This document shows positions 4,216-31,196 of a stretch of DNA of 64,000 bases, piece by piece. Below the pieces are notes generated by a model. It did not search any database and was not told where the DNA came from. It saw only the letters and a program-made list of their open reading frames with translations. The DNA comes from Rhodospirillales bacterium (GTDB lineage: Bacteria > Pseudomonadota > Alphaproteobacteria > Rhodospirillales > WMHbin7). Position numbers and translations under genes: made by a program. The stretch spans positions 1-64,000 of the forward strand of contig JACRJC010000005.1 in the NCBI GenBank assembly GCA_016215555.1, given 5' to 3'. Within the stretch, counting starts at the first letter, position 1. Each line of letters starts with the position of its first letter.

Positions 4216-5205
4216 ATGCGTCTGCTGCCCGCTTTGCTGCTTGCCGCTCCCCTGATGGCGCTGGCGGTACTGCCCGTCCAGGCTCAATCCGATATCCGCC
4301 CGCTCATCGATCGCCTGGATCGCATGGAACGCGATATGATGACGCTGCAGCGCCAGGTTTATCGCGGCGGCGGTTCTTCATCGTCTTCTTCTTCGCAGGC
4401 GGCGCCGCCCGTGGCCGGCGATTCCAGCGACGCCATCGTCTCGATCCAGGAACGGCTCGAGCGTCTCGAAGGCGAGATGCGCCGCCTGACCGGCAAGTTC
4501 GAGGAGTTGGGCCATACGCAGTTTCAGACCAACCAGCGTCTGGAACGCATGAACAAGGACAATGATCTGCGCTTCAAGGAACTCGAGCAGAAGCTGGCGG
4601 CGCAGCCGGTCTCGGAAGGGCCGCAGGCCGGTCCGGTGCCGCAGCACAATCCGCCACCCGAACTGATGCAGAATCCCAGCCCCAAGCCGGGCGAGGAGCC
4701 CATTGTGCTCAAACCGCCGGCGGGTGCCGAGGCCGGCAAAAGCGGCACCTTGCAGGCATCCTCGGCGGCCAAGCCGCCGCCGCCCTCGGGCCAGGCGTCG
4801 GCAACGCCCTCGGGCAATACGCAAGAACAGTACGACAAGGCCTATGCAGCCCTGAAGGGCGGCAACTATGCCGAGGCCGAGAAGGCTTTCGCCGCTTTTG
4901 TCAAAGCCAATCCCAATGACGCCCTGGCCGGCAACGCCCAATACTGGCTGGGCGAAAGCTTTTATGTGCGCGGCGACCATCAGAAGGCCGCCGAGACCTT
5001 CGCCGAGGGCTATCTGAAATATCCCAAAAGCGCCAAGGCTTCCGACAATCTGTTGAAGCTGGGCCTGTCGCTTGATGCCCTGGGCAAGAAAAAGGAAGCC
5101 TGCGCCAGCTACGACCGCTTGCTCAAGGAATTCAAATCCGCCGCCACCGCCGATGCCGCCAAGCGCAAGGCGACCAGTGAAATGCAGCGTTTGGGCTGCA
5201 AATAG
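4216..5205 (+). CDS. cpoB: Tol-Pal system protein YbgF / cell division coordinator CpoB
   Basis: CpoB is a periplasmic TPR protein that coordinates peptidoglycan synthesis with Tol-driven outer-membrane constriction. The 329-residue protein has a signal peptide ending near PVQA-Q (residue 23). A coiled-coil helix with heptad Leu/Met (RLDRMERDMMTLQRQV, then RLERLEGEMRRL) covers about 30-125. A long Pro/Ala/Ser-rich linker follows, then three TPR motifs from about 205 (YDKAYAALKGGNYAEAEKAF, the NAQYWLGESFYVRG region, then the DNLLKLGLSLDALGK region). It ends in EMQRLGCK, typical for the family. Its place after pal is canonical. AAGGAACTT precedes the ATG. Confidence 0.95.
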   Translation: MRLLPALLLAAPLMALAVLPVQAQSDIRPLIDRLDRMERDMMTLQRQVYRGGGSSSSSSSQAAPPVAGDSSDAIVSIQERLERLEGEMRRLTGKFEELGHTQFQTNQRLERMNKDNDLRFKELEQKLAAQPVSEGPQAGPVPQHNPPPELMQNPSPKPGEEPIVLKPPAGAEAGKSGTLQASSAAKPPPPSGQASATPSGNTQEQYDKAYAALKGGNYAEAEKAFAAFVKANPNDALAGNAQYWLGESFYVRGDHQKAAETFAEGYLKYPKSAKASDNLLKLGLSLDALGKKKEACASYDRLLKEFKSAATADAAKRKATSEMQRLGCK

Positions 5206-5239
5206 GCTTTCAGTCTTCGGCCCTCAGTCCACAGCCAAC

Positions 5240-5268
5240 AGCCCTCAGCTTTTTTCTTGCTGACGGCT
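5240..5268. repeat. Imperfect inverted repeat in the cpoB-tilS gap
   Basis: AGCCCTCAGC and GCTGACGGCT pair as a 10-bp stem with one mismatch around a T-rich loop (TTTTTTCTT). Flanking sequence on both sides keeps repeating CTCAG / CTGAG-like words (5208-5284), giving the look of a small decayed palindromic element. It fills most of the 87-bp gap and could act as a terminator for the tol-pal transcript. Confidence 0.5.
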
Positions 5269-5292
5269 GAGAGCTGATGTCTGAATGCGTCG

Positions 5293-6594
5293 ATGACCCT
5301 TTCCACCGTCTTTAGCCGCCATATGTCCGCCCTGGGCCCGTTCGAGCCCGGGCCGCATCTGGCCGTCGCCGTTTCCGGCGGTTCCGACAGTCTGGCCCTG
5401 GCCTTGCTGGCCCAATCCTGGGCGCAGGCGCAAGGCGGGCGGGTGACGGCGCTCACTGTCGATCACGGACTGCGCGACGATTCCCGAGCCGAAGCCCTGC
5501 AAGTTGGACATTGGCTGAGGAAGCGGGGCATCGCTCAGCGCATCCTGACCTGGGAGGGCGAAAAGCCGAAACAGGGCCTGATGGCGGCGGCGCGTCAAGC
5601 CCGCTACCGGTTGCTGGAAGATTGGTGCGCCCGAAAGGGGGTTCTGCATCTGCTGCTGGCCCATCAGATCGAGGATCAGGCCGAAACCCTGCTCATGCGC
5701 CTGGCCAGGGGCAGCGGCGCCGATGGGTTGGCCGGCATGGCTTCCATCGTCCATGCCAGGCAAGTGCGCCTGCTGCGCCCGCTGTTGGGCGTCAAACGTG
5801 CCAATCTGAAAGCCTATTTGCAGGGCTTGGGGCAGGCGTGGATCGACGATCCCAGCAATGAAAACCAAGTCTTCGAACGGGTGCGGCTGCGCGCCAACGC
5901 GCCGGTCTTGGCCGATTTGGGCCTGCGCGTCGAGGCCCTGGCCGCCAGCGCCGCCAAACTTGCCGCTCAAAAGCGCCATCTTGAAGCGGAAACCGCTGCC
6001 AGCCTGGCCAGGCATGTCATCGTCGATTCCCAGGGATTCGCCTGGGTCGAGCGCGCCTTGCTGGACGAACCGGTTGAAATCCGCCATCGCGGCCTGGCCC
6101 GTCTGCTGGCCTGCCTGAATGGCGAAGCCTATCTCCCCGCCATGGATCAGGTGGAAAGGCTGGGCCTGTCCATGACGGGCGGCGCTTGGCGGGGCGGCAC
6201 CCTGGCCGGCTGCCGGCTGCTTTTGCGCCAGGGCCGCATCCTGATCGTGCGCGAACCGGCGGCCTGCGCGCCGCCCTTGCGGCTGGTTTGCGGCCAATCT
6301 TGCCTGTGGGATGGGCGCTGGCGTGCGGCGACGGCAAGGGGGCGGGGACTGTTCCTGGGCGCCCTGGGCGGTCCCGAAGCCCAGGAACTGGCAAGACGGA
6401 CCCCCGGGCTTCGCGAATCGGTCCCCATTCCCTTTCCGGCCTGGGCCAGCCTGCCGGCCATCCGGGATGCAAGAGGTGTTTCCGCCGTCCCCGGACTGGG
6501 GTATAAACGAAGCCGCCAAGGTCCAGAGCCCTTGACGGAATTGAGTTTTGCGCCAAGGCGCTCCTTAACCGGTTCAAATCTGCTCTTGTCTTAG
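5293..6594 (+). CDS. tilS: tRNA(Ile)-lysidine synthase TilS
   Basis: TilS modifies C34 of the CAU-anticodon tRNA-Ile to lysidine using ATP and lysine, converting it to read AUA. The 433-residue protein carries the N-type ATP-pyrophosphatase P-loop SGGSDS at 28-33. It also has the downstream HQIEDQAET segment (usual form HH.DDQ.ET) and MRLARGSGADGLAGM, both family hallmarks. The C-terminal half is the tRNA-binding region with Leu-rich helices. The Shine-Dalgarno is weak; an in-frame ATG at 5323 is an alternative start. It sits between cpoB and ftsH, a common alphaproteobacterial order. The first His of the usual HHxxD pair appears as A-H-Q, a mild variation. Confidence 0.95.
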   Translation: MTLSTVFSRHMSALGPFEPGPHLAVAVSGGSDSLALALLAQSWAQAQGGRVTALTVDHGLRDDSRAEALQVGHWLRKRGIAQRILTWEGEKPKQGLMAAARQARYRLLEDWCARKGVLHLLLAHQIEDQAETLLMRLARGSGADGLAGMASIVHARQVRLLRPLLGVKRANLKAYLQGLGQAWIDDPSNENQVFERVRLRANAPVLADLGLRVEALAASAAKLAAQKRHLEAETAASLARHVIVDSQGFAWVERALLDEPVEIRHRGLARLLACLNGEAYLPAMDQVERLGLSMTGGAWRGGTLAGCRLLLRQGRILIVREPAACAPPLRLVCGQSCLWDGRWRAATARGRGLFLGALGGPEAQELARRTPGLRESVPIPFPAWASLPAIRDARGVSAVPGLGYKRSRQGPEPLTELSFAPRRSLTGSNLLLS

Positions 6595-8606: not shown

Positions 8607-9436
8607 TGGCGGACCAAGCGCAGCCTTTCTCTTTCGCGGGCGTTCCCCTGGAACGCCCGCTTCTCATGGGCATCGTCAACGTCACCCCCGACAGTTTTCA
8701 TGATGGCGGACGCCATCCCCTGCCCGAGCAGGCGGCGGCGCATGGGCGGCGTTTGCTGGAGGAAGGGGCGGCGATTCTGGACATCGGCGGCGAATCGACG
8801 CGCCCGGGAGCGGCACCGGTGCTGGAAAGCGTCGAGATCGAGCGCGTGGTGCCGGTGGTGCGCGGATTTGCGGGCCGTGGCGCCCTGGTTTCCATTGATA
8901 CAAGGCATCCTTCGGTGATGGTGGCCGCCATCAAGGCCGGTGCCCGCATCGTCAACGACATTGCCGGCCTGTCAGACCCGGAATCACGGCGCATCGTGCG
9001 CGAATCCGGCGTCCACGCCGTGATCATGCATATGCAGGGCGAGCCCGGCAGCATGCAGGCCGAACCCCATTACGACGATTGTCTGGCCGAGGTTTACGAC
9101 TGGCTGGCGGCCCGGCTGGCGCTGTGCGAGGCCGAGGGCATTCCCAGGGCCAGGATCGCCATCGATCCCGGCATCGGCTTTGGCAAATCGCTGGATCACA
9201 ACCTGGCCCTGTTGAAGGGGCTGCGCAAATTTCACGAACTTGGATGCCCGCTGCTGCTGGGGGCGTCGCGCAAGAGTTTCATCGCCCATCTGTGCGGCGG
9301 CATCCCTTCCGATGACCGGCTGCCCGGCTCGCTGGCGGCGGCGCTGTGGGGGGCGTCGCAGGGGGTTCACATCCTGCGCGTCCATGATGTCGCCGCAACC
9401 GCGCAGGCTCTAACTATATGGTCGCGCTTGTGCTAG
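8606..9436 (+). CDS. folP: Dihydropteroate synthase
   Basis: FolP condenses 6-hydroxymethyl-7,8-dihydropterin pyrophosphate with p-aminobenzoate in folate synthesis and is the sulfonamide target. The 276-residue TIM-barrel shows the two Pfam signatures: MGIVNVTPDSFHDGG near 23-37 and ILDIGGESTRPGA near 59-71. DPGIGFGKSLDHN and LLLGASRKSFI also match. The start overlaps ftsH. The stop codon TAG is unusual: it lies inside the terminal CTAG of a 76-bp palindromic element beginning at 9433, so the last codons or the stop may come from the insertion. glmM, which commonly follows folP, is replaced by a sugar-modification cluster. Confidence 0.96.
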
Positions 9437-9508
9437 TGTGGTGGTTTCGTAGTTCGTGCGATTATGCGGCCCCGGCAACACGAACTTCGAAACCAGAAAC
9501 CACACTAG
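9433..9508. repeat. 76-bp palindromic element A (MITE-like)
   Basis: The element starts CTAGTGTGGT and ends ACCACACTAG. Its arms (about 9433-9458 and 9479-9508) pair along nearly their whole length apart from a few small indels, so the transcript would fold into a long hairpin. The ends share CTAGTGT/ACACTAG and an internal AGTTCGT/ACGAACT word with element B. Its first bases contain the folP stop codon. It encodes no protein, has the size of a miniature inverted-repeat element, and may serve as the folP terminator. Confidence 0.8.
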
Positions 9509-9522
9509 AAATCGAATATTTG

Positions 9523-9598
9523 CTAGTGTCCCTATTGATTCGTAAGTTCGTAAATCGCCGGATTTCAAATCTCACGAACTTACGAATCAGGACACTAG
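9523..9598. repeat. 76-bp palindromic element B (MITE-like)
   Basis: This second element is exactly the same length as element A and starts 14 bp after it. It begins CTAGTGTCC and ends GGACACTAG. The arms share GATTCGTAAGTTCGT and its complement, with about five extra bases in the left arm. Together A and B fill nearly all of the gap between folP and the first radical SAM gene. The Shine-Dalgarno of that gene (AAAAGGA) lies just outside element B. Confidence 0.8.
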
Positions 9599-9629
9599 AC
9601 TCGTCTGACCTGTCAAAAGGATCCTTGCG

Positions 9630-10781
9630 ATGAACGGCTTGCCAGCGCAAAAGTCACCCATGTGCTTCGAGCCTTGGTACGAACTGAACGTCATGTATAA
9701 CGGACGCCTAGCTTGTTGTTGCTACTACAATGGCCCGGCATCCACCTTCGATCTTGACCGCTGGCCGGACCTGTTCAGCTATTGGAACGGCGACTTCATG
9801 CGCAAGGTACGTTCCGAAGTGGTGGACAACGTCCCCGAGGGCAGCGGCTGCAAAGGGTGCGTGGTTTTCAAGTATCGCAGCCACGAAGAAATGAGCCAGC
9901 TATTCCAGGGCTCTCCACAGGATATCCTGTCGCCGGCGCAATTAGAGAACCGCCAGCGAGCCATGGCAAATTTCGCCGCCGGTAAACTGGAGGTCGATCA
10001 TGTGCCGATGCGCTTTTATTTCAACTTTGGCGTATCTTGCAACATCAACTGCATCATGTGTTGCCAGACGCCCGAGCGCCCCAGCCATCAGACCCTGGAT
10101 GCGGACCGCCTGCTCGCCTGGAAGCCGCATATGGTCAAGGCGGAAACCATTTCCGTGATCGGTGGCGAACCTTTGATTCTGCCTCAGGCCATCAAGTTTA
10201 TCCGCGCCATTGTTCAGGATCAGGATTTCTCGACAGTCCGCATGGACCTGCTGACCAACGGTCTTAACCTTGACAAGTTCATAGACGAGCTGTCGGCAAA
10301 AACCCACATCAACTTCTGCATAAGCCTGGATGGCATCGGCGACAGCTACGAGCATATTCGTGCCGGCTCCAACTGGTCTCGAGTAGAAAACAACTTGCTG
10401 GCGCTCAAAGAAACCGCCGCCAGACGCAACCTGAAATGGACGGTGGTAACCGCGAACATCGTCATGAAAAGCAGCTTGGCCACGATCGACAAATTGGTGC
10501 GCTGGCATATCGAACACGATATCCATCCCAACTTTGTCGATTTCATGAATTTTTCGGGCATCGAAGACACTTATTTCAAGGAAAACATCTTTGCTTTTCC
10601 GGACCTGCTTGGCGAGGTGCCGGATTGGAACGGAAAGCTTGAGGAGGCGATCCATCTTCTAAATGAGAAAGGCTGGTTTGGCTCGGCCGACTTATTGCGA
10701 AAAATGAAATTGGACTTGATTACGCGTCTTTTTTCGCCGTTGCCAAATGAGCGGCAACAGATGTCGTGTCGCAAAGGATAG
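9630..10781 (+). CDS. Radical SAM protein with N-terminal SPASM-like cysteines (paralogue 1)
   Basis: This is a 383-residue radical SAM enzyme of unknown substrate. The cluster motif CNINCIMC (C137, C141, C144) binds the 4Fe-4S centre that cleaves S-adenosylmethionine, followed by GGEP at 178-181 and ISLDG at 231-235. The notable part is the N-terminus. C12 in MCFEPWYELN, a triple cysteine C29-C31 in LACCCYYNG, and C74/C77 in GCKGC, with an intervening W-N-G-D-F/R-x-E segment, resemble the SPASM auxiliary-cluster region that normally follows the radical SAM domain. The order therefore looks swapped. A close paralogue lies at 11653-12762, with a methyltransferase-like gene between. AAAAGGA precedes the ATG. 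A sugar, peptide or lipid modification is likely; the substrate is unknown. Confidence 0.85.
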   Translation: MNGLPAQKSPMCFEPWYELNVMYNGRLACCCYYNGPASTFDLDRWPDLFSYWNGDFMRKVRSEVVDNVPEGSGCKGCVVFKYRSHEEMSQLFQGSPQDILSPAQLENRQRAMANFAAGKLEVDHVPMRFYFNFGVSCNINCIMCCQTPERPSHQTLDADRLLAWKPHMVKAETISVIGGEPLILPQAIKFIRAIVQDQDFSTVRMDLLTNGLNLDKFIDELSAKTHINFCISLDGIGDSYEHIRAGSNWSRVENNLLALKETAARRNLKWTVVTANIVMKSSLATIDKLVRWHIEHDIHPNFVDFMNFSGIEDTYFKENIFAFPDLLGEVPDWNGKLEEAIHLLNEKGWFGSADLLRKMKLDLITRLFSPLPNERQQMSCRKG

Positions 10782-10789
10782 AGGTTAGC

Positions 10790-11656
10790 ATGCGTCTTCC
10801 CGCCCAGGCGTTCTATAATCAGCGCAACACCATCAGCGAGGATTCCGGAACCTTGCGGGCATTGGCGGACACCGTGGCCTGGCCCAATGACCTGACCCTG
10901 GCGCAGTGGTGTTCCTGGTATGCGGCCACGCTGGAATTCAAGCCGGATTTGATTATCGAACTTGGGCGGGGGATGGGAAATTCGACCACCCTGTTCACGC
11001 TTGCCGCCCATCGCATGCCGGGTGCCAAGGTGTTCAGTTTCTGCCTGAGCGAGCAGTGGGACCGCCTGACCCGCCCGAAAGTGCGGAGCTTGACCGGAGA
11101 GGAATGGTTTGCCCCCCTCTCGACATATCTGATCGACATCTGTCAGGTTGACTTTACACATCTTATCACGCCCGCCAAGCGCGTTCTGCTGCTTTGGGAC
11201 GCTCATGGCTATGTTGTGGCTGATCGCGTTCTGTCGCATATCATGCCTTTGCTGGCCCAAAAGGAGCACGTGGTGTTCTGTCATGATGTGACGGACAATC
11301 GTCTGTATGCGGATGGGCCTCGAGGCTATATGGGAAAGACCATCTGGAGAGGCATGGAGTCATACTATGCCTCGCCAGAAACCGTGGGGCGGACAAATAT
11401 TTTCTGGCTGAACACGGTTGTCGATCAGTTCATTCCCATCCTGGATTTCTGCTGGCGCAACAGGATCGAACTGCGTTCGACGGACTGGGAAATGAAGGAA
11501 GACTTTGCCAAGCATCCGCAATATTATAGCGAGTTGCAGCAGGCCGTGCCGGAAGACTGCTTCTCGATGGTCAATCATTGGGCCTATTTCACCTTGAATG
11601 AGGCGCCTGGCCCGCTGACATTTCCGGCGTCGGTGCTGAAGGCCGGCGAAAATTGA
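10790..11656 (+). CDS. SAM-dependent methyltransferase-like protein
   Basis: This 288-residue protein has a Rossmann-type SAM-binding motif, LIIELGRGMGNSTTLF, at about 54-69, near the glycine-rich motif I of class I methyltransferases. LLLWDAHGYV and VVFCHDVTDN, further along, resemble the acidic and metal-site strands of cephalosporin hydroxylase/CmcI-like methyltransferases. The ATG at 10790 follows AGAGG and starts eight bases after the upstream radical SAM stop; an earlier in-frame codon at 10766 would overlap that gene. Its stop overlaps the TTG start of the next radical SAM gene. Being sandwiched between two paralogous radical SAM genes in one operon suggests that all three act on one product. 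The substrate is unknown; a cephalosporin hydroxylase-like fold is only a possibility. Confidence 0.7.
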   Translation: MRLPAQAFYNQRNTISEDSGTLRALADTVAWPNDLTLAQWCSWYAATLEFKPDLIIELGRGMGNSTTLFTLAAHRMPGAKVFSFCLSEQWDRLTRPKVRSLTGEEWFAPLSTYLIDICQVDFTHLITPAKRVLLLWDAHGYVVADRVLSHIMPLLAQKEHVVFCHDVTDNRLYADGPRGYMGKTIWRGMESYYASPETVGRTNIFWLNTVVDQFIPILDFCWRNRIELRSTDWEMKEDFAKHPQYYSELQQAVPEDCFSMVNHWAYFTLNEAPGPLTFPASVLKAGEN

Positions 11657-12762
11657 TCGCGCAAGCGACAGGCCAGGGCCCTGCGTGCCCGGTTCCCTGG
11701 TACGAACTCAATATCATGTATAACCGCCGCGTCGGTTGTTGCTGCTATTACAACGGCTATGTTCTGTCCTGGAACAACCGCCAAGCTGCAGACATGTTTT
11801 ATTACTGGAATGGCGCTTTCATCTCGCAAATCCGCTCCGAAGTGGTGCGGGGAGTTATGGATTCCGGATGCTCGGGCTGCGGATTCTACCGGTTCAAGGA
11901 TGATGGCGCCGTCTATGCGACTTTCGATCCGCCACCGGAATCGACGCCTGAACAAATAGCCAATCTGCAACGCGCCAGAGAAAATTTTAACCTTGGCTCG
12001 GTCACGGTCGATCATGTGCCGATACGCTTCTATTTCAATTTCGGCGTTGGATGCAATTTAAACTGCATCATGTGCGGTCAGACCTCGGAGCGTCCTGACG
12101 AGACGAGCCTTGACGCCGATCTGTTGTGGCAATGGCTTCCGCATTTCAAGAAATCGCTTTGCCTGTCCCTGATCGGGGGCGAGCCTCTGGTTCTACCGCA
12201 GGCGCTTTCCTTCATTCGCAAGGTTGTTTCCGAGAAGGAATTGGAAGCCGTTCAACTCGACCTTTATACCAACGGGGCCGTCCTCGACAAACATATGGAT
12301 TTGCTTGAACGCAAGAACAGACTTTCCATTTGCGTCAGTCTTGACGGAGTCGGGCCAACCTATGAGCGGATCAGAAAGGGCGGCAATTGGGCCCGAGTCG
12401 AGCGCAATCTATTGGATTTCAAGGAAACGTCTGTCAGGAAGGGGCTGCGCTGGAGTCTGACCACTGCCAATCTGATCATGAAAACCAGCCTGGCGGGTCT
12501 TGAAAGATTGGTCGATTGGCACATTGCCCAGGACATCACGCCGAATTTTTCGGACTTTTCGTTGGCGCCGGGGATCGAGAAAACATTTTTGGAAGAGAAT
12601 GTTTTTGAATTCCCTCATTTGCTGGCGGAGGTGCCGGACTGGACGCATCAGTTCGACGCATCGATACAAAAGCTCGAGGGGAAAGGGTGGTGGAGTGTTG
12701 CCGCCATTCTTCGCAACATGAAGCTTGATTTGGTCCACAGGCTGTTCAAGCCGTTTCCTTAA
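11653..12762 (+). CDS. Radical SAM protein with N-terminal SPASM-like cysteines (paralogue 2)
   Basis: This 369-residue paralogue of the 9630-10781 protein is similar end to end. It has C12 (ACPVPWYELN), triple cysteine C29-C31 (GCCCYYNG), C73/C76 (GCSGC), and the radical SAM triad C134, C138, C141 (CNLNCIMC), followed by IGGEP and VSLDG. The start is a TTG overlapping the stop of the methyltransferase-like gene. The two paralogues share the DHVPxRFYFNFGV segment just before the cluster and a Trp-rich end (VPDW...GW...LRNMKLDL). Divergence is spread evenly, so they may act on different positions of the same molecule or form a heterodimer. The gene converges on a transferase-like gene and overlaps it by 17 bp. 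Confidence 0.85.
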   Translation: MIAQATGQGPACPVPWYELNIMYNRRVGCCCYYNGYVLSWNNRQAADMFYYWNGAFISQIRSEVVRGVMDSGCSGCGFYRFKDDGAVYATFDPPPESTPEQIANLQRARENFNLGSVTVDHVPIRFYFNFGVGCNLNCIMCGQTSERPDETSLDADLLWQWLPHFKKSLCLSLIGGEPLVLPQALSFIRKVVSEKELEAVQLDLYTNGAVLDKHMDLLERKNRLSICVSLDGVGPTYERIRKGGNWARVERNLLDFKETSVRKGLRWSLTTANLIMKTSLAGLERLVDWHIAQDITPNFSDFSLAPGIEKTFLEENVFEFPHLLAEVPDWTHQFDASIQKLEGKGWWSVAAILRNMKLDLVHRLFKPFP

Positions 12763-13978
12763 GGATGGTTTCTCTGAGCGAAAACGGCGCCAGTCCCCAA
12801 GACTGGTCGTTGAAGGAAGCCTTTGCCCCAAGCACGCTGAATTGCCTGACGCTTGCTTCCACTTCTTCCCAAAGCAGAAATGGAATCCCCTGTTTAGCCA
12901 ATCTTTCAAACAATTGCCGTTCCCCTTCCGGCGTGAATCCGGAACCGGCGCTGTGTTCAATGTGATAATGCGCCATCGGATACTCCAGAATTTCTTCTCG
13001 CACCCGCTCGCTTGCGATGCTGCACAGAAGAAGCAGGCTGTCGATATGCATCGAATAGCCCTCGTATTCGGGATAGCCCTGAATGGAAAACCAGCTATCC
13101 CGATCCATAAGTTCGAAGTCGCCGCAGGCATTGGTGTGCCCGGGAACAGCCTGTTTGACCTTGGTTATGGCCTGGGTGGTGTTCCTTATTGTGTCCAGAA
13201 AGTACTCTGTCACGCCATGCCATGCGGTTCCGACGATGGATTTGGCGAGATCATGGTTCCCCGCGGCCATGTGCCGGCAAGCCAGAACCACCGCTCTTGC
13301 AAGCTTGGGGGCGGTTTTTCCAAGATAAATGATTGTTTGGTTTGCCCAGCCAATCCAGGCGGCAGTGGGTGTTGTTGTGATGGCGAACAAATTGCCGTCG
13401 CGCATGTCCAAGGTCCAAGAAGCACCATTGATGCGGATGACGTTCTTTTTGCACCAAGCCATAAGTTCGCCTGTCGGGACGTCAGGCAGTTCCATGGGGA
13501 CGTCCAGCCGCTCATTCCGGTAGATGACACCTTTCTCCAATTTTCTTTCAGCAAGAAAGGCGAACAACTCGTCGGAAAAAAGGATGTCGATGTTGCTGGT
13601 TAGGATAAAGGGAGCGCGGGCGCGCCGGATCCCGGCATTCTTGGCAATGAACTGATAAAGGGGCAGGCGGTCCGCGCAGCCGAAGCGCTTGTGCAATTCC
13701 TCGGGCACTTCGATCAGGCGCAGCCGGCAGGGGCCACGATCTTGAGGCCAGCGCAGGGAATCGATCAGCCGGGGGCGCTCGGCGGGGGGGTTCCATTCCA
13801 CGAAAACAAGTTCCGACGGTAGGTTGTACTTTGCCGTCTGAAAGAACCAGCCATCCACAAAAGTCTGCATCCTCTGTTGGATATTGAGGCCATGATTGTC
13901 GTTGCGGCTGGTGACCACCAGCGACAAATAGGGGGCGGGTTCCTGGATGGTTGGGGGGGGGGGAGGGGGCGCAGTCAT
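12746..13978 (-). CDS. Glycosyltransferase-like protein (family paralogue 1), poly-C tract near start
   Basis: This protein of about 410 residues opens, after a proline run, with a GT-A-like strand (YLSLVVTSRND), followed by VFVEWNPP, AKNAGIRRARAPFILTSNIDILF and GDFELMDRDSWFSIQGYPEYEGYS. This resembles small family-2-type transferases that read a donor with an internal D-x-D-like NID element. It has a clear paralogue at 15115-16251 sharing the N-x-GIRR, GDF-L-DR-W-G-PEY-G and Q-S/D-WGL segments. I used the ATG at 13978; a TTG at 14008 is possible. Codons 4-9 are a poly-C stretch (C5 T C10), a feature of phase-variable surface genes. The gene is alone on the minus strand, opposing the twin radical SAM operon. 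The enzyme activity is not proven. Confidence 0.7.
   Translation of the reverse strand: MTAPPPPPPTIQEPAPYLSLVVTSRNDNHGLNIQQRMQTFVDGWFFQTAKYNLPSELVFVEWNPPAERPRLIDSLRWPQDRGPCRLRLIEVPEELHKRFGCADRLPLYQFIAKNAGIRRARAPFILTSNIDILFSDELFAFLAERKLEKGVIYRNERLDVPMELPDVPTGELMAWCKKNVIRINGASWTLDMRDGNLFAITTTPTAAWIGWANQTIIYLGKTAPKLARAVVLACRHMAAGNHDLAKSIVGTAWHGVTEYFLDTIRNTTQAITKVKQAVPGHTNACGDFELMDRDSWFSIQGYPEYEGYSMHIDSLLLLCSIASERVREEILEYPMAHYHIEHSAGSGFTPEGERQLFERLAKQGIPFLLWEEVEASVRQFSVLGAKASFNDQSWGLAPFSLRETILKETA
13954..13969 (-). repeat. Poly-C tract C5-T-C10 at the 5' end of the transferase-like gene
   Basis: The plus strand reads ten G, one A, five G. On the coding strand this is C5 T C10 within the first ten codons, giving a run of six prolines. 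Gain or loss of one C would shift the frame of the whole protein. A second C7 run lies in the same gene at 13784-13790. Confidence 0.85.
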
Positions 13979-14002
13979 GTCCCTATGATGCACGTCCCGG
14001 CC

Positions 14003-14033
14003 TTGCAAGGGAAGATGCCCCTTGAGCTATAAT
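14003..14033 (+). promoter_or_regulatory. Candidate promoter of the epimerase operon
   Basis: A consensus TATAAT at 14028-14033 lies 19 bp after TTGCAA (14003-14008), in the 132-bp gap between divergent genes. Transcription would begin near 14040, leaving a leader of about 70 bases with an AAGGGGA Shine-Dalgarno before the ATG at 14111. The -35 matches four of six bases and the spacing is slightly long. Confidence 0.5.
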
Positions 14034-14110
14034 CCCAGTGCTGCCACAATATCTACGATAGCAGCGCCAGAACGGTGCTGAATGTGGATTGCCAAGGGGA
14101 CGTTTTAGCT

Positions 14111-15118
14111 ATGGATAAGAATGATCTGATCGTCGTCACCGGTGCCGGCGGCTTCATTGGCGGGCATCTGCTTGCCGACTTGCGTTCTCAAGGCTATCGC
14201 CGTTTGCGCGGTGTGGACATCAAGCCGCTTGATGTCTGGTTTCAAAGCTTTCCAGATGTGGATAATCAGGTCGCCGATTTGAAGGAATTGGCCGCCTGCC
14301 GGGCCGCCGCCAAGGAAGCCTCCTATGTCTTTAATTTTGCTTGCGACATGGGGGGGATGGGGTTCATCGAAACCCACAAGGCCGAATGCATGCTTTCGGT
14401 CCTGATCAACACCCATATGTTGATGGCGGCCAGGGAAGTTGGCGCCAAGCGCTTCTTCTATTCCTCCTCGGCTTGCGTTTATGCCGCCGGCAAACAGCTT
14501 GACGAGCATGTGACGGCGCTTCGGGAAAGCGACGCCTATCCGGCCATGCCCGAAGATGGCTATGGCTGGGAAAAGCTGTTCAGCGAGCGGATGTGCCGCC
14601 ATTTCACCGAGGATTTCGCGCTAACAACGCGCGTCGTGCGCTTCCATAATGTTTACGGTCCCTGGGGAACCTTCGACGGCGGTCGCGAGAAGGCCCCGGC
14701 GGCGATATGCCGCAAGGTGCTGCGCGCCAAGGATAGTGGGGTTCATGAGATTGAGATTTGGGGCGACGGGCATCAGACCCGAAGCTTTATGTATATTGAT
14801 GACGCCCTGCATGGCGTCAAAGCCGTCATGATGAGCGACAGTATCCTGGATCCGATTAATCTTGGCTCTGCCGAGTTGGTCAGCATCAATCAGCTTGTGG
14901 ATATTGTCGAGGAAATCGCCGGCCTCAAGCTGAAGCGAAGCTACAACCTCGCGGCCCCAAAGGGGGTTCGGGGGCGGAACAGCGATAACACATTGATTCG
15001 TTCGCATCTGGGGTGGGAGCCGTCCACCCGGCTTAAAGATGGCCTGGCCAAGACCTATGCTTGGATCCATGACATGCAGACTGGCGGGCGTGATTTTGCG
15101 CGGTTCGTCAGGCCGTGA
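14111..15118 (+). CDS. NAD-dependent epimerase, GDP-mannose 3,5-epimerase-like
   Basis: This is an extended short-chain dehydrogenase of 335 residues. The nucleotide-binding GAGGFIG is at 11-17, SSSACVY at 118-124 holds the catalytic Ser/Cys region, and YGWEK at 151-155 gives the Tyr/Lys pair. Segments CDMGGMGFIE, RFHNVYGPWGTFDGGREKAPAA and GDGHQTRSFMYIDD follow plant GDP-mannose 3,5-epimerase closely, including the active-site Cys. Such enzymes convert GDP-D-mannose to GDP-L-galactose or GDP-L-gulose. The ATG at 14111 follows AAGGGGA; an in-frame ATG at 14075 is upstream. The stop overlaps the GTG of the next gene. The context suggests it feeds an unusual sugar nucleotide into the local glycan; a related epimerase specificity is possible. 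Confidence 0.82.
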   Translation: MDKNDLIVVTGAGGFIGGHLLADLRSQGYRRLRGVDIKPLDVWFQSFPDVDNQVADLKELAACRAAAKEASYVFNFACDMGGMGFIETHKAECMLSVLINTHMLMAAREVGAKRFFYSSSACVYAAGKQLDEHVTALRESDAYPAMPEDGYGWEKLFSERMCRHFTEDFALTTRVVRFHNVYGPWGTFDGGREKAPAAICRKVLRAKDSGVHEIEIWGDGHQTRSFMYIDDALHGVKAVMMSDSILDPINLGSAELVSINQLVDIVEEIAGLKLKRSYNLAAPKGVRGRNSDNTLIRSHLGWEPSTRLKDGLAKTYAWIHDMQTGGRDFARFVRP

Positions 15119-16251
15119 CCTCTGGCCGTCCCAGGCTGTCCCTTGTTCTGGCATCGCGGAATGCCGACGAAGAGTCGTTGCTGGCCTTGAAGGGAACGCT
15201 GAATGCGTGGGATCGGTTCGCACGGACTTGTTCCGATTGCCTTGAAATTATCGTTGTCGAATTGCCCCCCCCCTCTTCGCGGCCCAGTTTGCGGCAGTCG
15301 CTAAGGAAAATGGATCTGGGTCTGATGGTCAGACTTTTTTCTTTCCCAGAGAAATTGGACCATCTGCATGGCCGATCCCTGGCTTTGCCGCACCTTGAAC
15401 ATCTTGCTTGGAATGTTGGCATCAGAAGATCGAATGCCGATTATATCCTTGTCACCAGGCCGGGTGTTCACCCAACGCCGGAATTAGCCGATTTTGTCCT
15501 CAGGGGAAGGCTCGTCCCCGGAAAGCTTTACCGGGCGGATGTGTATGAAATGTCCGGCGAGGGCGTCGATGCGCCGTTTCTGGCGGCAAAGGCCAACCGC
15601 ATTCACCTGGCCCGCGAAACGCTGGATCTTGCCCAACGAAAAACGATTATGCGTTTCCAGGAAAGTTTTGCGGTTTGGGGGGAGCCGATCTCGACGGGCC
15701 TGATGTTCTTGCTGACGCATATTCTGCTGTTCTGTTCGTTGTTGTTCCATTCCTTGCTTGCGGCAAAGACGTCGAATCTCAGATATCTGCCCCATTTTGG
15801 AAAAGTGTTGGCCAGGGATTTCAGCCAGGCTGCCTATTTATACCGCGTTCGACGCTCTGCCTGGCTATTCTTCCGCTCGCTGCATCTGAACGCCGCCGGT
15901 GATTTTCTTTTGGCGGACAGAGAACGCTGGATGGGGTGGAGGGGGGTGCCGGAGTATCAAGGCCATTCATTCCTGGTCGATGCGATGTTTGTTCTGGCCG
16001 CCGTCGGCTCTGGCAGTGCGCGGGAAAAGCGGCTGGTGTGGCCGATGGCCGTGCTTCGCACGACTCCTTTGGATATTGAGGGGCCAGCCGCTGATGAAGA
16101 ATTGCCGGTCCTGACTCCCCTTGCGGCGGCTAGGCAAGCGGATGGCTGGCGGCTAAGTGGGCCTTCATTCTCGTTCAATCTGCAAGATTGGGGGCTGGGC
16201 GAACTGGAGCTTTTGGAAAATGTCTTTGGCGGAAAGGCATCTCTGGCATGA
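15115..16251 (+). CDS. Glycosyltransferase-like protein (family paralogue 2)
   Basis: This 378-residue protein starts at a GTG overlapping the previous stop codon. It begins with a GT-A-like strand (RLSLVLASRNADEE) and contains VVELPPPSSRPSL, WNVGIRRSNADYILVTRPG, and AGDFLLADRERWMGWRGVPEYQGHSF. These align in order with the protein at 12746-13978, so the two form a small family. A hydrophobic stretch at about 198-220 (TGLMFLLTHILLFCSLLF) may be a membrane-dipping helix, at the place where the paralogue has a milder hydrophobic region. A C9 run lies at codons 51-53. The operon partners are the epimerase, the nucleotide-sugar dehydrogenase and a FkbM-type methyltransferase, which supports transfer of an activated sugar. 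The exact donor is unknown. Confidence 0.65.
   Translation: MTSGRPRLSLVLASRNADEESLLALKGTLNAWDRFARTCSDCLEIIVVELPPPSSRPSLRQSLRKMDLGLMVRLFSFPEKLDHLHGRSLALPHLEHLAWNVGIRRSNADYILVTRPGVHPTPELADFVLRGRLVPGKLYRADVYEMSGEGVDAPFLAAKANRIHLARETLDLAQRKTIMRFQESFAVWGEPISTGLMFLLTHILLFCSLLFHSLLAAKTSNLRYLPHFGKVLARDFSQAAYLYRVRRSAWLFFRSLHLNAAGDFLLADRERWMGWRGVPEYQGHSFLVDAMFVLAAVGSGSAREKRLVWPMAVLRTTPLDIEGPAADEELPVLTPLAAARQADGWRLSGPSFSFNLQDWGLGELELLENVFGGKASLA
15265..15273 (+). repeat. C9 homopolymer in the second transferase-like gene
   Basis: Nine consecutive C encode three prolines in VELPPPSSRP. The homologous position in the paralogue (13784-13790, opposite strand) is a C7 run. A one-base slip here would truncate the protein after about 50 residues and could also affect the overlapping downstream operon. 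Confidence 0.8.
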
Positions 16252-16267: not shown

Positions 16268-17593
16268 ATGAAGTTGTCAGTGATTGGATTGGGAAAGCTG
16301 GGCGCCCCCTTGGCGGCGGTCATGGCCAGCAAGGGGTTCGAGGTTCTTGGCGCTGATTTAAGGCGGGATTTTGTCGATTCGATCAATGCCGGCCAGGCGC
16401 CAGTCGTCGAACCGCGTCTTCAGGAGCTGATCGATGCGTCAAAGGGGCGGCTACGCGCAACGACGGATGTCGAGGAAGCTGTGCGCGAGACGGACGCCAG
16501 CTTCGTTATTGTTCCCACGCCGACCGGCCCCGATGGCATCTTCCTTCTCGATTATGTGATGGCCTGCGCCAAGCCGATTGGCCAGGCCATTGCCAAGAAA
16601 TCAAGCTACCACCTTGTCGTCATCACCAGCACGGTCATGCCCGGCGATACGGGAACGAAGCTGGTGCCGGCGCTGGAAGAAGCATCCGGAAAGCGCTGCG
16701 GCACCGACTTCGGTGTCTGTTACAATCCGGAGTTCATCGCACTTGGCAGCGTCGTGTACAATATGCTCAACCCGGATTTTATTTTGGTTGGCGAATCTGA
16801 CGCCAAAGCCGGCGCGATGCTAGAGACGATCTATCGTCAAAGCTGCGATAAGCCCCCGCACTTTGCGCATATGAACTTCGTGAATGCCGAGCTGGCGAAG
16901 ATATCGGTGAACAGCTTTGTCACCATGCGCATTTCATTTGCCAATCAGTTGGCCAGGATTTGCGACTTCATTTCCGGCGCCGACGTCGATGTGATTACCA
17001 GCGCCATTGGCTTGGATACCCGCATCGGCAGGAAATATTTGAAGGGCGCCGTCAGTTTTGGCGGCCCATGTTTTCCACGTGACAATGTGGCCTTCGCCAA
17101 GATGGCGGCCGGCTTGGGAACGGAAGCGCCAATGGCGCTGGCAACCGATAAGATGAACAACGACTATCTCGACCATTTGGCGGCAAAAATATTGCGCCTT
17201 CTTCCTCGTGGGGGCGTTGCCGGGTTGCTGGGCATGTCCTATAAGCCGGATACCGGCGTTATCGATGCGTCGCCCAGCGTCGAACTGGCGCGCAGGCTTC
17301 TTGAGAAATCCTGTCAGGTCATCGCCCACGACCCGCTGGCCATTCCCGAGGCCCGGGCAAAGCTGGGCGAGCACATCGTATGGGCGGCCACTATGAGTGA
17401 ATGCGCAAGAGAAGCGGATGTCCTGATCATTTTGGTGCCTTGGCCTGAATATGCCGGATTGAAGCCGGGCGTGTTGAAAAACGGAGGCAAAGGCGTCTCC
17501 GTGCTAGATTGCTGGCGCCAGTTGCCGTCGGAACAGTTTGCCGGGATATGCCACTATGAATTGATAGGTTGCCCCAATTCTGCGCAGGGATGA
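16268..17593 (+). CDS. Nucleotide-sugar dehydrogenase (UDP-glucose/GDP-mannose dehydrogenase family)
   Basis: Enzymes of this family oxidise the C6 hydroxyl of a UDP- or GDP-hexose to a uronic acid in two NAD-dependent steps. The 441-residue protein has the N-terminal GLGKLG (7-12), substrate-domain motif NPEF, KISVNSF with the catalytic Lys region, and GGPCFPRD with catalytic C268. The C-terminal domain (GLLGMSYKPDTGVIDASPS) matches the family. The ATG at 16268 is preceded by GGAGGAAA. The specificity (UDP-Glc, UDP-GlcNAc or GDP-Man) cannot be read from sequence. In this cluster it could make the uronic acid precursor for the 3-acetamido sugar set at 28-31.7 kb, or act with the adjacent epimerase. 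Confidence 0.9.
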   Translation: MKLSVIGLGKLGAPLAAVMASKGFEVLGADLRRDFVDSINAGQAPVVEPRLQELIDASKGRLRATTDVEEAVRETDASFVIVPTPTGPDGIFLLDYVMACAKPIGQAIAKKSSYHLVVITSTVMPGDTGTKLVPALEEASGKRCGTDFGVCYNPEFIALGSVVYNMLNPDFILVGESDAKAGAMLETIYRQSCDKPPHFAHMNFVNAELAKISVNSFVTMRISFANQLARICDFISGADVDVITSAIGLDTRIGRKYLKGAVSFGGPCFPRDNVAFAKMAAGLGTEAPMALATDKMNNDYLDHLAAKILRLLPRGGVAGLLGMSYKPDTGVIDASPSVELARRLLEKSCQVIAHDPLAIPEARAKLGEHIVWAATMSECAREADVLIILVPWPEYAGLKPGVLKNGGKGVSVLDCWRQLPSEQFAGICHYELIGCPNSAQG

Positions 17594-17596
17594 CAG

Positions 17597-18814
17597 GTGA
17601 CAAACTCAAACGCAGTCCAGAATCCTGCCTTTGCAGCCTTTCTTGTCCGTAGTGGCTGGCTTGAAAAGGAGCCATTCGTTCTTGCTGATGTCGGCGTCGG
17701 CGGAGGGATACATGAGTGTTGGAACGTGTTTGGCGATGCTTTGCATGTTTGGGGATTTGATCCCCTGGAAGGTGAAGTGGAAATCCTGAACAGAGAAAAC
17801 CATGGCGGCCGCCATCATTATACCGCGGCAAAGGTCGGTTCTTCTGACTTCAAGCGCGTTGAGCAATTGAACGAGAATGGTGTCTCGCTTCGGAACGACC
17901 ACTGTTGGGACCGGCTTGCCACAATGCGCGCGCTTAGACTTTTGGATGCCTTCGGAATGGAACGCTATGACCGTTCCGGACTTTGCAAGATATCAGACCT
18001 TACAGTGTCGCTAGACGATTTTTTTCTTGATCAGCATAGGCCGCCTCCAAATTTTGTTAAAATCGATACGGACGGTTTCGATATTGAAGTGCTGCATGGA
18101 AGCAGGCGCCTGCTGGACGATGGCAGATTGCTTGGTCTTTCCGTCGAGTCGCAATTCGTTGGCAACATTGGCCCGACGGCCAATGTTTTTTCCAATATCG
18201 ACACGCTTTTGAGAAACCATGGTTTCACGCTGTTCGATCTTGATCCGATCCGTTATTCACGGGGCAATCTGCCGATGCCTTTCACGGCGCCGGCCCCCGT
18301 TCAATCCCATGGCGGTCAATTGATCTGGGGCGAAGCGCTGTATTTTCGTGATTTCACGCATGCTGACTATGAAGCGATGTGGGGCATTTCGCCAAGCGAC
18401 AATGACATAATTAAACTTTGCTGCCTGTTCGATATTTTTGCGCTTCCGGACTGCGCTGCGGATCTGCTTGTGAAATACAGAGACCGGTTCTTGCCGGACT
18501 TCGTCAACCAGTGTTTGGATAGGCTAACTCCAACCCTTAACGGAAGAAAAGTATCTTACAGCGAATATATTTCCGCCTTTGAGGCCTATGTCCAGTCAGG
18601 ATACGACGAGAAATTATTTGAGGTGCCGCTTCTGACGGCAAGGCAAGTCACTTCAAGTGAGTGGCACTCGGTGCAGGAATCCCTGCGCCTTCGAGACGAA
18701 ATCATCGCCTCGCTGAAGGGAATTGTTTCAGTGCACGAGGAGACAATCAAGCGCATGCAGGAGCGCGAGGCGGAGCGGATGCGCCAAGAAATGAAAGCGA
18801 AAGGACTGCTGTAA
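17597..18814 (+). CDS. FkbM-type methyltransferase with C-terminal coiled coil
   Basis: The 405-residue protein starts at GTG 17597, three bases after the dehydrogenase stop. The N-terminal half has the FkbM layout: LADVGVGGG (motif I), WGFDPLEGE (acidic end of the second strand), and FVKIDTDGFDIEVLHGS (metal-free FkbM signature). FkbM proteins O-methylate sugars or polyketide rings. After about residue 240 the protein has no clear relative, and it ends in a charged helix (HEETIKRMQEREAERMRQ) likely to form a coiled coil for oligomerisation. The local DNA is less GC-rich than its neighbours, a possible sign of transfer. It converges on a minus-strand operon 14 bp away. Confidence 0.8.
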   Translation: MTNSNAVQNPAFAAFLVRSGWLEKEPFVLADVGVGGGIHECWNVFGDALHVWGFDPLEGEVEILNRENHGGRHHYTAAKVGSSDFKRVEQLNENGVSLRNDHCWDRLATMRALRLLDAFGMERYDRSGLCKISDLTVSLDDFFLDQHRPPPNFVKIDTDGFDIEVLHGSRRLLDDGRLLGLSVESQFVGNIGPTANVFSNIDTLLRNHGFTLFDLDPIRYSRGNLPMPFTAPAPVQSHGGQLIWGEALYFRDFTHADYEAMWGISPSDNDIIKLCCLFDIFALPDCAADLLVKYRDRFLPDFVNQCLDRLTPTLNGRKVSYSEYISAFEAYVQSGYDEKLFEVPLLTARQVTSSEWHSVQESLRLRDEIIASLKGIVSVHEETIKRMQEREAERMRQEMKAKGLL

Positions 18815-26041: not shown

Positions 26042-26068
26042 ACTCGGCAGGAAACAAGGTGTGTGCGG

Positions 26069-28116: not shown

Positions 28117-29085
28117 TCAAGCCCTTCCGCTGGACCACCACCAACCGACAAGTTCGCGCAGCCCTTCTTCCAGACAAATCGAGGGCTGATAGCCGAGGTC
28201 ACGCTCTGCGGCGCCAATATCGGCTAAACGCCGGGGGACCGGATTGACGCTGCGCTGCGGGGCGTATTCGATCGAAAGGTCGGTCCTTCCCATCACGGTC
28301 AGCAAGGCTTTGGCCAAATCAAGCAGCGATGTCTCCCGTTGGACGCCGACATTATAGACCCGGTCGCTGACCTCGGCGCGCAGAGCCAATATGTTCGCCC
28401 TGGCGACATCCTTGACATGGACGAAATCCATGGTCTGCGTGCCGTCTCCGAAAATGATCGGCGGTTGCCCCGCTTTGATGCGATCCATCCAGCGGACCAG
28501 AACTTCGGTATATTTGCCATGAATGTCCATGCGAGAGCCATAGACGTTGAAGTATCGCAAAGCCACGTAGGGAAGGCCCGCAATGTCGTTGTACGAGCGC
28601 AGCATACCCTCAAGGAACAGTTTGGCGGCGCCATAAAAGGTCCGATTGTCGTAAGGATGATGCTTCTCGTTGGTCGGAAATTCTTCGGCCAATCCGTAAA
28701 CCGATGCCGAGGAAGCGGCGACGATACGTTTGATTTTGTGGCGGACACAGCTTTCAAGCAGATTGAAAGAAGCCTTGGCCATGACGTCGAAACCGGCGCG
28801 CGGAAGTTCTGCGCAATGGGTGATTCTTAGGGCAGCCTGGTGCAGGACGTAATCAGACTGTGCAACCAGGGAATCAAGCAGCGCTTCGTCGCAAATGTCC
28901 CCCTCGATCAGTTCGACGGGGCCTTTGGCCAGGGCAGCGTCTAGATTCTCGCGCCGTCCTCTCAGCAGATTGTCGATGACGATGATCCGCCCACATCCCT
29001 CAGCGACCAATAGATCGACAATGTGCGAGCCGACGAAGCCCGCTCCTCCTGTAACCAGAACGCACTTTCCTTGAAGATCTGTCAT
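28117..29085 (-). CDS. NAD-dependent sugar epimerase/dehydratase
   Basis: The 322-residue extended SDR has GGAGFVG at 13-19 (NAD binding), SSASVYG, and the YGAAK catalytic Tyr/Lys, with a C-terminal substrate domain (RYFNVYGSRMD, GDGTQTMDFVHVKDVA). It resembles UDP-glucose 4-epimerase and UDP-GlcNAc 4-epimerase-type enzymes. The start overlaps the stop of the aminotransferase gene by 4 bp (ATGA). As the last gene of the acetyltransferase-oxidoreductase-aminotransferase-epimerase operon, it may epimerise the 3-acetamido sugar nucleotide or supply its precursor. Confidence 0.88.
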   Translation of the reverse strand: MTDLQGKCVLVTGGAGFVGSHIVDLLVAEGCGRIIVIDNLLRGRRENLDAALAKGPVELIEGDICDEALLDSLVAQSDYVLHQAALRITHCAELPRAGFDVMAKASFNLLESCVRHKIKRIVAASSASVYGLAEEFPTNEKHHPYDNRTFYGAAKLFLEGMLRSYNDIAGLPYVALRYFNVYGSRMDIHGKYTEVLVRWMDRIKAGQPPIIFGDGTQTMDFVHVKDVARANILALRAEVSDRVYNVGVQRETSLLDLAKALLTVMGRTDLSIEYAPQRSVNPVPRRLADIGAAERDLGYQPSICLEEGLRELVGWWWSSGRA

Positions 29086-30173
29086 TTGTAAGCCTTGATC
29101 GCATCGATTACGGTTTCGCATTGCTGGTCGGTCATTTCCGGGAAAAGGGGCAAGGAAAGGAATTCGTCCACCAGGCTTTCGGATACAGGAAAATCACCCG
29201 CTTTGAGCGCCAGGGAGGCAAACATCGGTTGAAGATGAGCGGGGATGGGATAGTGACAGCCGGACGCGATGTGCCGGTCTTGAAGGAAGTGGCGCAACCT
29301 ATCCCTATTCTTCGCGCGAATCGAAAAAACATGCCAGGCGTGGCCTGGATGGCTGAGGGGCAAGCCGACAGTTCCATCCAATGCCATAAGATATTTTTCG
29401 GCCAGGCGCCTTCTTGCCGCAAGCCAAGCATCAAGCCGCCGCAGCTTTAGGGTCAGAATGGCGCCTTGAATCGCATCCATGCGGAAATTGCCGCAACCGG
29501 GCATGTCGTGGCGGTACCGTTGGCTCTGTCCCCAGTCGCGCAGCAAGCGCAATTTTTCGGCCAGTTCATCGTCGTTGGTTGCGATTGCGCCGCCCTCGCC
29601 GCAGGCGCCGAGATTCTTGGCCGGATAGAAGCTGAAGCACCCCATAACGCCAAGGGTACCCGCCATTTGTGTGCCGATTGTCGCGCCGTGCGCTTGCGCA
29701 GCGTCCTCGATGACGGCAATTCCGGCCTGCCTGGCAATCCTGGAGATAGCCTGCATGTTGGCTGGACGGCCGTGAAGATGTACCGGGATCACGGCTTTCG
29801 TTCTCGGGGTTATGGCTTTCTCGAATCCATCAGGGTCAAGAGTCCATTCATTCTGGGTCACATCGGCCAGAACCGGTTTTGCTCCCGTGGCGACGATGGC
29901 CGTCACCGTCGCCACAAAAGTCATGGTCGTGGTAATCACTTCGTCACCGGGGCCAATGCCGATGGCGCGCAGGGCGAGTTCCAGGGCTGACGTGCCGCTG
30001 TTGACGGCGACGACGTGCTTGACGCCCAGATAGGTTGCGAAATCTTGTTCGAAGCCCTCAACCTCGGGGCCAAGGATGAATGTGCCGCTGTCCAGAATGC
30101 GGCTGACGGCATCCAAGATTTCCTGTTTCAGAGTTGAATGGTGAAGTTTCAAATCGACGAAAGGAACGGGCAT
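29082..30173 (-). CDS. DegT/DnrJ/EryC1/StrS sugar aminotransferase (WbpE-like)
   Basis: These PLP enzymes transaminate a keto-sugar nucleotide. The 363-residue protein has NSGTSALELAL (PLP phosphate), IEDAAQAHGA with D157, and CFSFYPAKNLGACGEGG with Schiff-base K186. It lies between an oxidoreductase and an epimerase in one operon, the arrangement in which WbpB oxidises C3 of a UDP-GlcNAcA-type sugar and WbpE aminates it. The 3-keto assignment follows from the operon; the sequence alone does not fix the position. Confidence 0.9.
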   Translation of the reverse strand: MPVPFVDLKLHHSTLKQEILDAVSRILDSGTFILGPEVEGFEQDFATYLGVKHVVAVNSGTSALELALRAIGIGPGDEVITTTMTFVATVTAIVATGAKPVLADVTQNEWTLDPDGFEKAITPRTKAVIPVHLHGRPANMQAISRIARQAGIAVIEDAAQAHGATIGTQMAGTLGVMGCFSFYPAKNLGACGEGGAIATNDDELAEKLRLLRDWGQSQRYRHDMPGCGNFRMDAIQGAILTLKLRRLDAWLAARRRLAEKYLMALDGTVGLPLSHPGHAWHVFSIRAKNRDRLRHFLQDRHIASGCHYPIPAHLQPMFASLALKAGDFPVSESLVDEFLSLPLFPEMTDQQCETVIDAIKAYK

Positions 30174-30179
30174 CGTTGG

Positions 30180-31196
30180 TTATCCAAGAAGTGGGACGGA
30201 TTGTCCCTGCCGGGTGAGGGATTGCTGAGCGGTTTCGAGGATTCTCACGACCTCCAGCCCCTCGGGCCCTCCCGTCTCGGGTTTGCAGCCCGATCTGATG
30301 CAATCGCGGAAATGCGAGACAACCCGGGTCAGCGCTTCGGTTCTGTCCAGGGCTGGTATGGCGATGTCGCCTGTGCGGTAATCCACTTTTTTTTCCGTGG
30401 GCAACCTGGGCGCGGTCTGAATGCTGACGCCGCGGTCGTAAATCTTCACCTTCTCGTCCGGGTCCAGGTCGTCATAGATCACCATGCGCCTGTCTCCGCC
30501 GATCAAGGTGCGGCGCAGCTTGACGGGGGACAGCCAGTTGACATGAGTGTGCGCAATCAGCCCATCTTCGAATAGCATGGTCAGGTAGGCCATGTTGGTC
30601 GGCGTGTTCTCGAAATGCCGTTGACCGATGCAAGAAACGGTCGATGGCGATTTGCCGATCAAATAGCTCATGATCGAGATGTCGTGAGCGGCAAGATCCC
30701 ATAAGACATCGACATCGCTTTGGAACAAGCCCAGATTGATCCGGACCGAGTCGTAGTACAGCAGTTTACCAAGGTGGTCTTGGTCAAGAAGCTGGCGAAT
30801 CTTCCGGATCGCTCCATGGTAGACGAAAGTATGATCCACCATCAGCGTCAACTGGCGCTTGTCTGCCTCCTCGATCAGAAGAAGCGCATCCTCTGACTTC
30901 GTCACCATAGGCTTTTCGACAAGAACGTGCCGACCCGACCTTAGGGCGGCAAGCGCGTGCTCGGCATGACGATGGACAGGAGAGGCGATGACGATCGCAT
31001 CAACGCCCCTGCCTTCAATCAATTCATTGGCTCCGGAAAGGATTTGTGTCTGCGGCCATGCCGCGGCGGCACGTTCTTGCGATGAGGGATCGCAATCGGC
31101 AATGGCCGCCAGCCGCAGCCCGTCCGTGGCCTGAATATTGCGGGCAAGATTTGGTCCCCAATAGCCGTAACCGATCAGGCCAACATTGATGGTCAT
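30180..31196 (-). CDS. Gfo/Idh/MocA-family oxidoreductase (WbpB-like)
   Basis: This 338-residue NAD(P)-dependent sugar dehydrogenase has the N-terminal GLIGYGYWGPNL, VIASPVHRHAEHA and the family's EKP motif (VLVEKPMVTK), with WDLAAHDISIMSYL in the catalytic domain (Asp/His pair). In the WbpB pathway such an enzyme oxidises the C3 hydroxyl of a UDP-N-acetylglucosaminuronate. Its start overlaps the acetyltransferase stop by 4 bp, and the aminotransferase begins 6 bp downstream. Confidence 0.88.
   Translation of the reverse strand: MTINVGLIGYGYWGPNLARNIQATDGLRLAAIADCDPSSQERAAAAWPQTQILSGANELIEGRGVDAIVIASPVHRHAEHALAALRSGRHVLVEKPMVTKSEDALLLIEEADKRQLTLMVDHTFVYHGAIRKIRQLLDQDHLGKLLYYDSVRINLGLFQSDVDVLWDLAAHDISIMSYLIGKSPSTVSCIGQRHFENTPTNMAYLTMLFEDGLIAHTHVNWLSPVKLRRTLIGGDRRMVIYDDLDPDEKVKIYDRGVSIQTAPRLPTEKKVDYRTGDIAIPALDRTEALTRVVSHFRDCIRSGCKPETGGPEGLEVVRILETAQQSLTRQGQSVPLLG

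Follow-up and report, generated by a model that had tools for sequence, protein, structure and literature searches.

Twin radical SAM proteins with a predicted twitch block ahead of the core, encoded beside nucleotide-sugar genes in a Rhodospirillales bacterium

Organization of the locus

The window, a 64,000-nucleotide stretch of Rhodospirillales contig JACRJC010000005.1, contains two genes for radical SAM proteins (here called the twins) that are separated by a single ORF (Table 1). The order of motifs is the same in both twins: a cysteine block, then (D)HVPxRFYFNF, and then CNxNCIMC, the last belonging to a canonical CX3CX2C radical SAM core that also contains a GGE motif. This layout, described in an earlier note made from the nucleotide sequence, agrees with the ORFs and the alignment, and the gene duplication proposed there is upheld by the 51% identity of the two proteins, which are paralogues. 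The junctions between the three ORFs overlap or almost touch, and the stop codon of the sandwiched gene and the TTG start codon of protein 2 have nucleotides in common; with such spacing, as in an operon, the twins and the intervening gene probably form a single transcription unit. The same three genes are found in identical order downstream of folP in the Rhodospirillaceae bacterium LM-1, where the proteins are 72 to 77% identical to those of the window, and this conservation indicates that the three ORFs are real genes. No match to the trio was found in two further members of the genus.

In the window, a palindromic element of ~100 bp (9500 to 9601) separates folP from the first radical SAM gene. 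Nine additional copies of it (82 to 98% identity) are present in the genome. Because LM-1 has almost no gap at this position, the element looks like a MITE-type insertion.

Table 1. Features of the twin radical SAM locus and its neighbours
Feature	Position	Strand	Basis and remarks
Radical SAM protein 1, 383 aa	9630..10781	+	ORF; predicted twitch block ~10-80, radical SAM core ~125-305, helical C-terminus
Predicted N-terminal twitch block, protein 1 residues 12-78 (C12, C30, C31, WN 52-53, C74, C77)	9663..9863	+	Invariant columns, profile match
CX3CX2C radical SAM cluster motif, protein 1 (C137, C141, C144)	10038..10061	+	Invariant across aligned relatives
Sandwiched gene, 296-codon ORF, weakly Methyltransf_24/CmcI-like	10766..11656	+	Sub-threshold Pfam; D145-A-H147, H173-D174
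Radical SAM protein 2, 369 aa, paralogue of protein 1	11653..12762	+	ORF, NF033640 and Radical_SAM matches
GDP-mannose 3,5-epimerase-like gene	14075..15118	+	PDB sequence match, E 2.6e-90
Nucleotide-sugar 6-dehydrogenase gene	16271..17593	+	TIGR03026 over cutoff
FkbM-family methyltransferase gene	about 17597..18814	+	Pfam 31.9 bits, over threshold; recurrent neighbour of the radical SAM subfamily

The true start of the sandwiched gene is probably an ATG at ~10790. The description of its product as methyltransferase-like stands in part: a DAH...HD pattern recalls Methyltransf_24, but the matches to methyltransferase families of Pfam (PF13578 or PF04989; E values of 0.04 and 0.07) stay below threshold, with 15.2 bits against 26.3, and those of the LM-1 copy (14.5 and 12.1 bits) are likewise sub-threshold. 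An AlphaFold model of the protein, built from two sequences, had a pLDDT of 35, too low for the model to be of use. Among the genomes of the order that were searched, the only other copy of the gene was that of LM-1 (77% identity), and it was absent from plasmid records and from all other loci of the radical SAM subfamily, including the tandem pairs in genomes G529 and G552.

The N-terminal cysteine block and the radical SAM core

Residues C12, C30, C31, W52, C74, and C77 of protein 1 are invariant in an alignment of 12 relatives from the order, as are the radical SAM cysteines C137, C141, and C144, and C12, C30, N53, and C74 persist even across 11 far more diverse proteins. The triple cysteine noted at residues 29 to 31 is thus conserved at C30 and C31 but not at C29, since most homologues outside the genus carry CC only. 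The C-x2-C pair noted near residues 73 to 77 is present, its exact position in protein 1 being C74/C77. Four to five conserved cysteines suggest a single-cluster (twitch) site and not a full SPASM domain.

The proposal that these cysteines are of the SPASM/twitch type was supported by profile comparison. The profile of the N-terminal blocks aligned over its full length with a profile of C-terminal SPASM/twitch blocks, which came mostly from loci retrieved through their resemblance in the radical SAM core, not in the block (hhalign probability, 96%; pairwise E value, 2.6e-9). All 12 N-terminal blocks scored 18 to 30 bits against the C-terminal profile, whereas the best of 1,188 scored shuffles, in which the cysteine positions were fixed and the other residues shuffled, reached 11.8 bits; the match therefore exceeds what cysteine spacing alone provides. 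It is also in full register, comprising the WN(G/S) helix motif and both cysteine pairs. The Pfam SPASM model (PF13186) aligned to residues 12 to 77 of protein 1 with 17.3 bits, under the gathering threshold of 21.5, and to the N termini of several relatives in full register, also sub-threshold; no such match was listed for protein 2 in the Pfam scan. Two other proteins encoded by the same genome carry a SPASM domain N-terminal to the core with scores (46.3 and 33.5 bits) above that threshold. For comparison, the protein encoded at 26063 in the window has its SPASM domain after the radical SAM domain, as had been noted (Pfam, residues 231 to 298, 53 bits), and this C-terminal domain matches positions 5 to 71 of the N_Twi profile considered below. 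We are highly confident that the N-terminal block of the twins is a twitch-type block, and it is predicted to bind one auxiliary [4Fe-4S] cluster.

The radical SAM core was recognized by Pfam (PF04055) in both proteins, with 46.4 bits for protein 1 and 61.6 bits for protein 2 against a threshold of 29.5. In an AlphaFold model of protein 1 built from 11 sequences, the core is confident and the N-terminal block forms a hairpin followed by helices (residues 18 to 65); pLDDT values are below 50 at residues 31 to 36 and 69 to 83, the loops that contain C31, C74, and C77. The top fold matches of the core included BlsE, MoaA, SkfB, and SuiB, with E values down to 8.8e-9; the search covered essentially the core, so that the absence of a twitch match is uninformative. 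The best of these was BlsE, a cytosylglucuronate decarboxylase (7vob; Foldseek E value, 8.8e-9; VIA Z, 13.3 over 217 residues with 4.4 A rmsd), but the comparison concerns the core alone and the identity is only 16 to 20%. A BlsE-like decarboxylase role, prompted by the nearby NDP-sugar dehydrogenase gene, was considered and rejected because the match is limited to the shared core.

Relatives and recurrent gene neighbours

The earlier note knew of no described system with this arrangement, but the order with the twitch block N-terminal is already described, as NCBIfam models it in NF033640 (N_Twi_rSAM). The twins resemble this family in that a single continuous alignment runs in each through the N-terminal block and the core (profile positions 3 to 311 and 4 to 301 of 398; residues 10 to 304 of protein 1). 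Their scores of 123 bits (protein 1) and 125.6 bits (protein 2) are below the curated cutoff of 170, so they are divergent relatives of N_Twi_rSAM and not certified members, forming a subfamily that is found mostly within the same bacterial order and occurs in tandem copies. NF033640 also aligned to relatives in Azospirillum, G529, G410, and G552, and two viral-contig proteins with the same domain order exceeded the cutoff (220 and 316 bits). The block-before-core order occurs in viral contigs, in several phyla, and in two more proteins of this genome. In LipA and the MiaB/RimO families, the ligands of an auxiliary Fe-S cluster are also N-terminal to the radical SAM core; these auxiliary domains are unrelated to SPASM/twitch. 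In a review, the SPASM and twitch domains are presented as extensions at the C terminus (PMC9012708). The phrase "N-terminal SPASM" was absent from the papers searched, and no functional study of N-terminal-twitch enzymes was found in the same literature.

One of the two other proteins with this order in the genome (L030, 8784 to 10421, contig C35) has an extra N-terminal region in addition to an over-threshold SPASM domain before the core. The other (L031, 7427 to 14251, minus strand, contig C25) is a single chain of 2,274 residues with sulfotransferase-like, family-2 and group-1 glycosyltransferase, N-terminal-twitch radical SAM, and B12-binding radical SAM domains. Viral contig L035 contains two different N_Twi radical SAM genes (4599 to 6116 and 8824 to 10143), between which lie an apparent gp46-type recombination gene and a third radical SAM-like gene with a CX3CX2C motif.

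When 317 genomes of the order were scanned, 11 close members of the subfamily were identified in seven genomes. One further member is located on an Azospirillum plasmid, the only informative one of five weakly matching plasmid records. Protein 1 had no tblastn match in phage genome records and, as a lone query, none in viral contigs; with the family alignment as the query, four viral-contig loci were found. Tandem radical SAM pairs are also present in G529 and G552. The tree indicated with strong support that the window/LM-1 and G552 duplications were separate events, and it did not settle the position of the G529 pair; a lineage-specific duplication most likely gave rise to the twins. An additional C-terminal region of ~130 to 170 residues, present in the other relatives, is missing from the window and LM-1 proteins.

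A constant methyltransferase partner had been suggested in the sandwiched position. As the sandwiched gene is restricted in the order to this species and LM-1, it is not that partner; instead, an FkbM-type gene recurs and fits the role better. Homologues of the FkbM-type gene of the window are rare in the order, being found in 5 of the 317 genomes at an E value of 1e-30, and in four of these five, representing three genera, the distance between the gene and the radical SAM genes ranges from 50 bp to 5.7 kb. Co-occurrence with the subfamily gave hypergeometric values of 4e-7 by genome and 2e-5 by genus, figures that ignore shared ancestry. The Azospirillum plasmid locus also encodes an FkbM homologue (33% identity).

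A surface-polymer setting, as had been proposed, is supported by the nucleotide-sugar, glycosyltransferase, and FkbM genes around the twins. Genes for GDP-mannose-3,5-epimerase-like proteins and NDP-sugar dehydrogenases recur at the window, LM-1, Azospirillum, and G529 loci, and glycosyltransferase and sugar-aminotransferase genes are also near the twins. However, eight loci were examined, and in those of G552 (which is at a contig edge), G532, and G527 neither an FkbM homologue nor obvious glycan genes were found near the radical SAM genes; a glycan role may therefore not extend to the whole subfamily. In G410 (L065, 277 to 9583), the radical SAM and FkbM genes are beside apparent flagellar motor and hook genes, which hints at a flagellar and not a capsule glycan there. 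Two related proteins of the window (12746 to 14008, minus strand, and 15115 to 16251, plus strand), which are 28% identical and glycosyltransferase-looking, matched no Pfam or NCBIfam family. Farther downstream (28117 to 31696), genes for an epimerase, a DegT-type aminotransferase, a UDP-GlcNAc-3-dehydrogenase-like protein, and a hexapeptide acyltransferase are clustered, and together they resemble a pathway for making a diamino or amino sugar.

Possible function and alternative explanations

We favor the reading, with a probability of about 0.6, that the twins arose by a lineage-specific duplication and are BtrN/BlsE-like radical SAM enzymes of the N-terminal-twitch type, acting on a surface-glycan sugar. 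BtrN (PMC9012708, which discusses the role of its auxiliary cluster) and BlsE (PMC3715490) are sugar-acting mechanistic relatives. Like BtrN and MoaA, the twins would combine a radical SAM core with a single auxiliary cluster site, here a predicted one, and the substrate of BtrN is a sugar-like cyclitol; the twitch domain of BtrN and MoaA follows the core, whereas that of the twins precedes it. In the proposed mechanism, the N-terminal block would fold back and hold one auxiliary [4Fe-4S] cluster beside the active site. The SAM cluster would generate a 5'-deoxyadenosyl radical that abstracts hydrogen from a sugar, sugar-nucleotide, or glycan, while the auxiliary cluster could bind the substrate or accept the second electron, in line with what has been suggested for enzymes of the BtrN type. 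The product would be an oxidized, epimerized, or decarboxylated sugar destined for the surface glycan, with the twins performing successive or alternative steps, and it might then be methylated by the FkbM-type methyltransferase and perhaps also by the sandwiched protein. That the twins act on a surface-glycan component is probable, but the choice of any single specific reaction would be speculation and unlikely to be correct.

The alternatives concern the substrate, the metal site, and the assembly of the proteins. Peptides are the substrates of many SPASM/twitch radical SAM enzymes, SkfB and SuiB are among the top fold matches, and the viral-contig relatives sit between phage recombination genes, outside any glycan locus; the twins could accordingly have a twitch domain by true descent and still be RiPP-like peptide or protein maturases, with their substrate encoded elsewhere and the glycan setting incidental. 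We consider this unlikely, since the twins match no RiPP family beyond the common radical SAM core, a casual look revealed no conserved short precursor, and the bacterial neighbourhoods repeatedly contain nucleotide-sugar genes. A likeness to SPASM that is confined to the sequence, with the cysteines binding zinc or forming a structural site in place of an Fe-S cluster, would be in line with the low-confidence cysteine loops of the AlphaFold model and with the sub-threshold SPASM scores of the twins. Such a site is very improbable, however, given the full-register match that includes the WN(G/S) helix motif and both cysteine pairs, goes beyond cysteine spacing, and has over-threshold counterparts of the same domain order in this genome.

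The third possibility is an obligate complex of three proteins, the twins plus the sandwiched protein, for a sequence of radical and methyl-transfer reactions. The gene order and overlaps are kept in two species, and both twins are retained there (72 to 76% identical to their LM-1 counterparts), but all other subfamily loci, the G529 and G552 tandem pairs included, do without the sandwiched gene, and its product resembles a methyltransferase only below threshold. Such a complex is therefore improbable, although slightly less so than a zinc or structural site.

Returning to the surface-glycan reading, a more far-reaching version of it is that the twins and the FkbM-type methyltransferase, perhaps with the sandwiched one, are a working set for an undescribed radical sugar modification in a surface glycan, the auxiliary cluster being supplied to the barrel from its N-terminal side. 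We regard this as tentative and on balance doubtful, if somewhat more credible than a peptide substrate. In the literature searched, no paper was found that combined radical SAM with FkbM and polysaccharide or with O-antigen and SPASM. Should this version prove true, surface-glycan tailoring would be added to the scope of radical chemistry. The cassette conserved in LM-1, together with a candidate constant partner, offers a concrete entry to the function of N-terminal-twitch enzymes.
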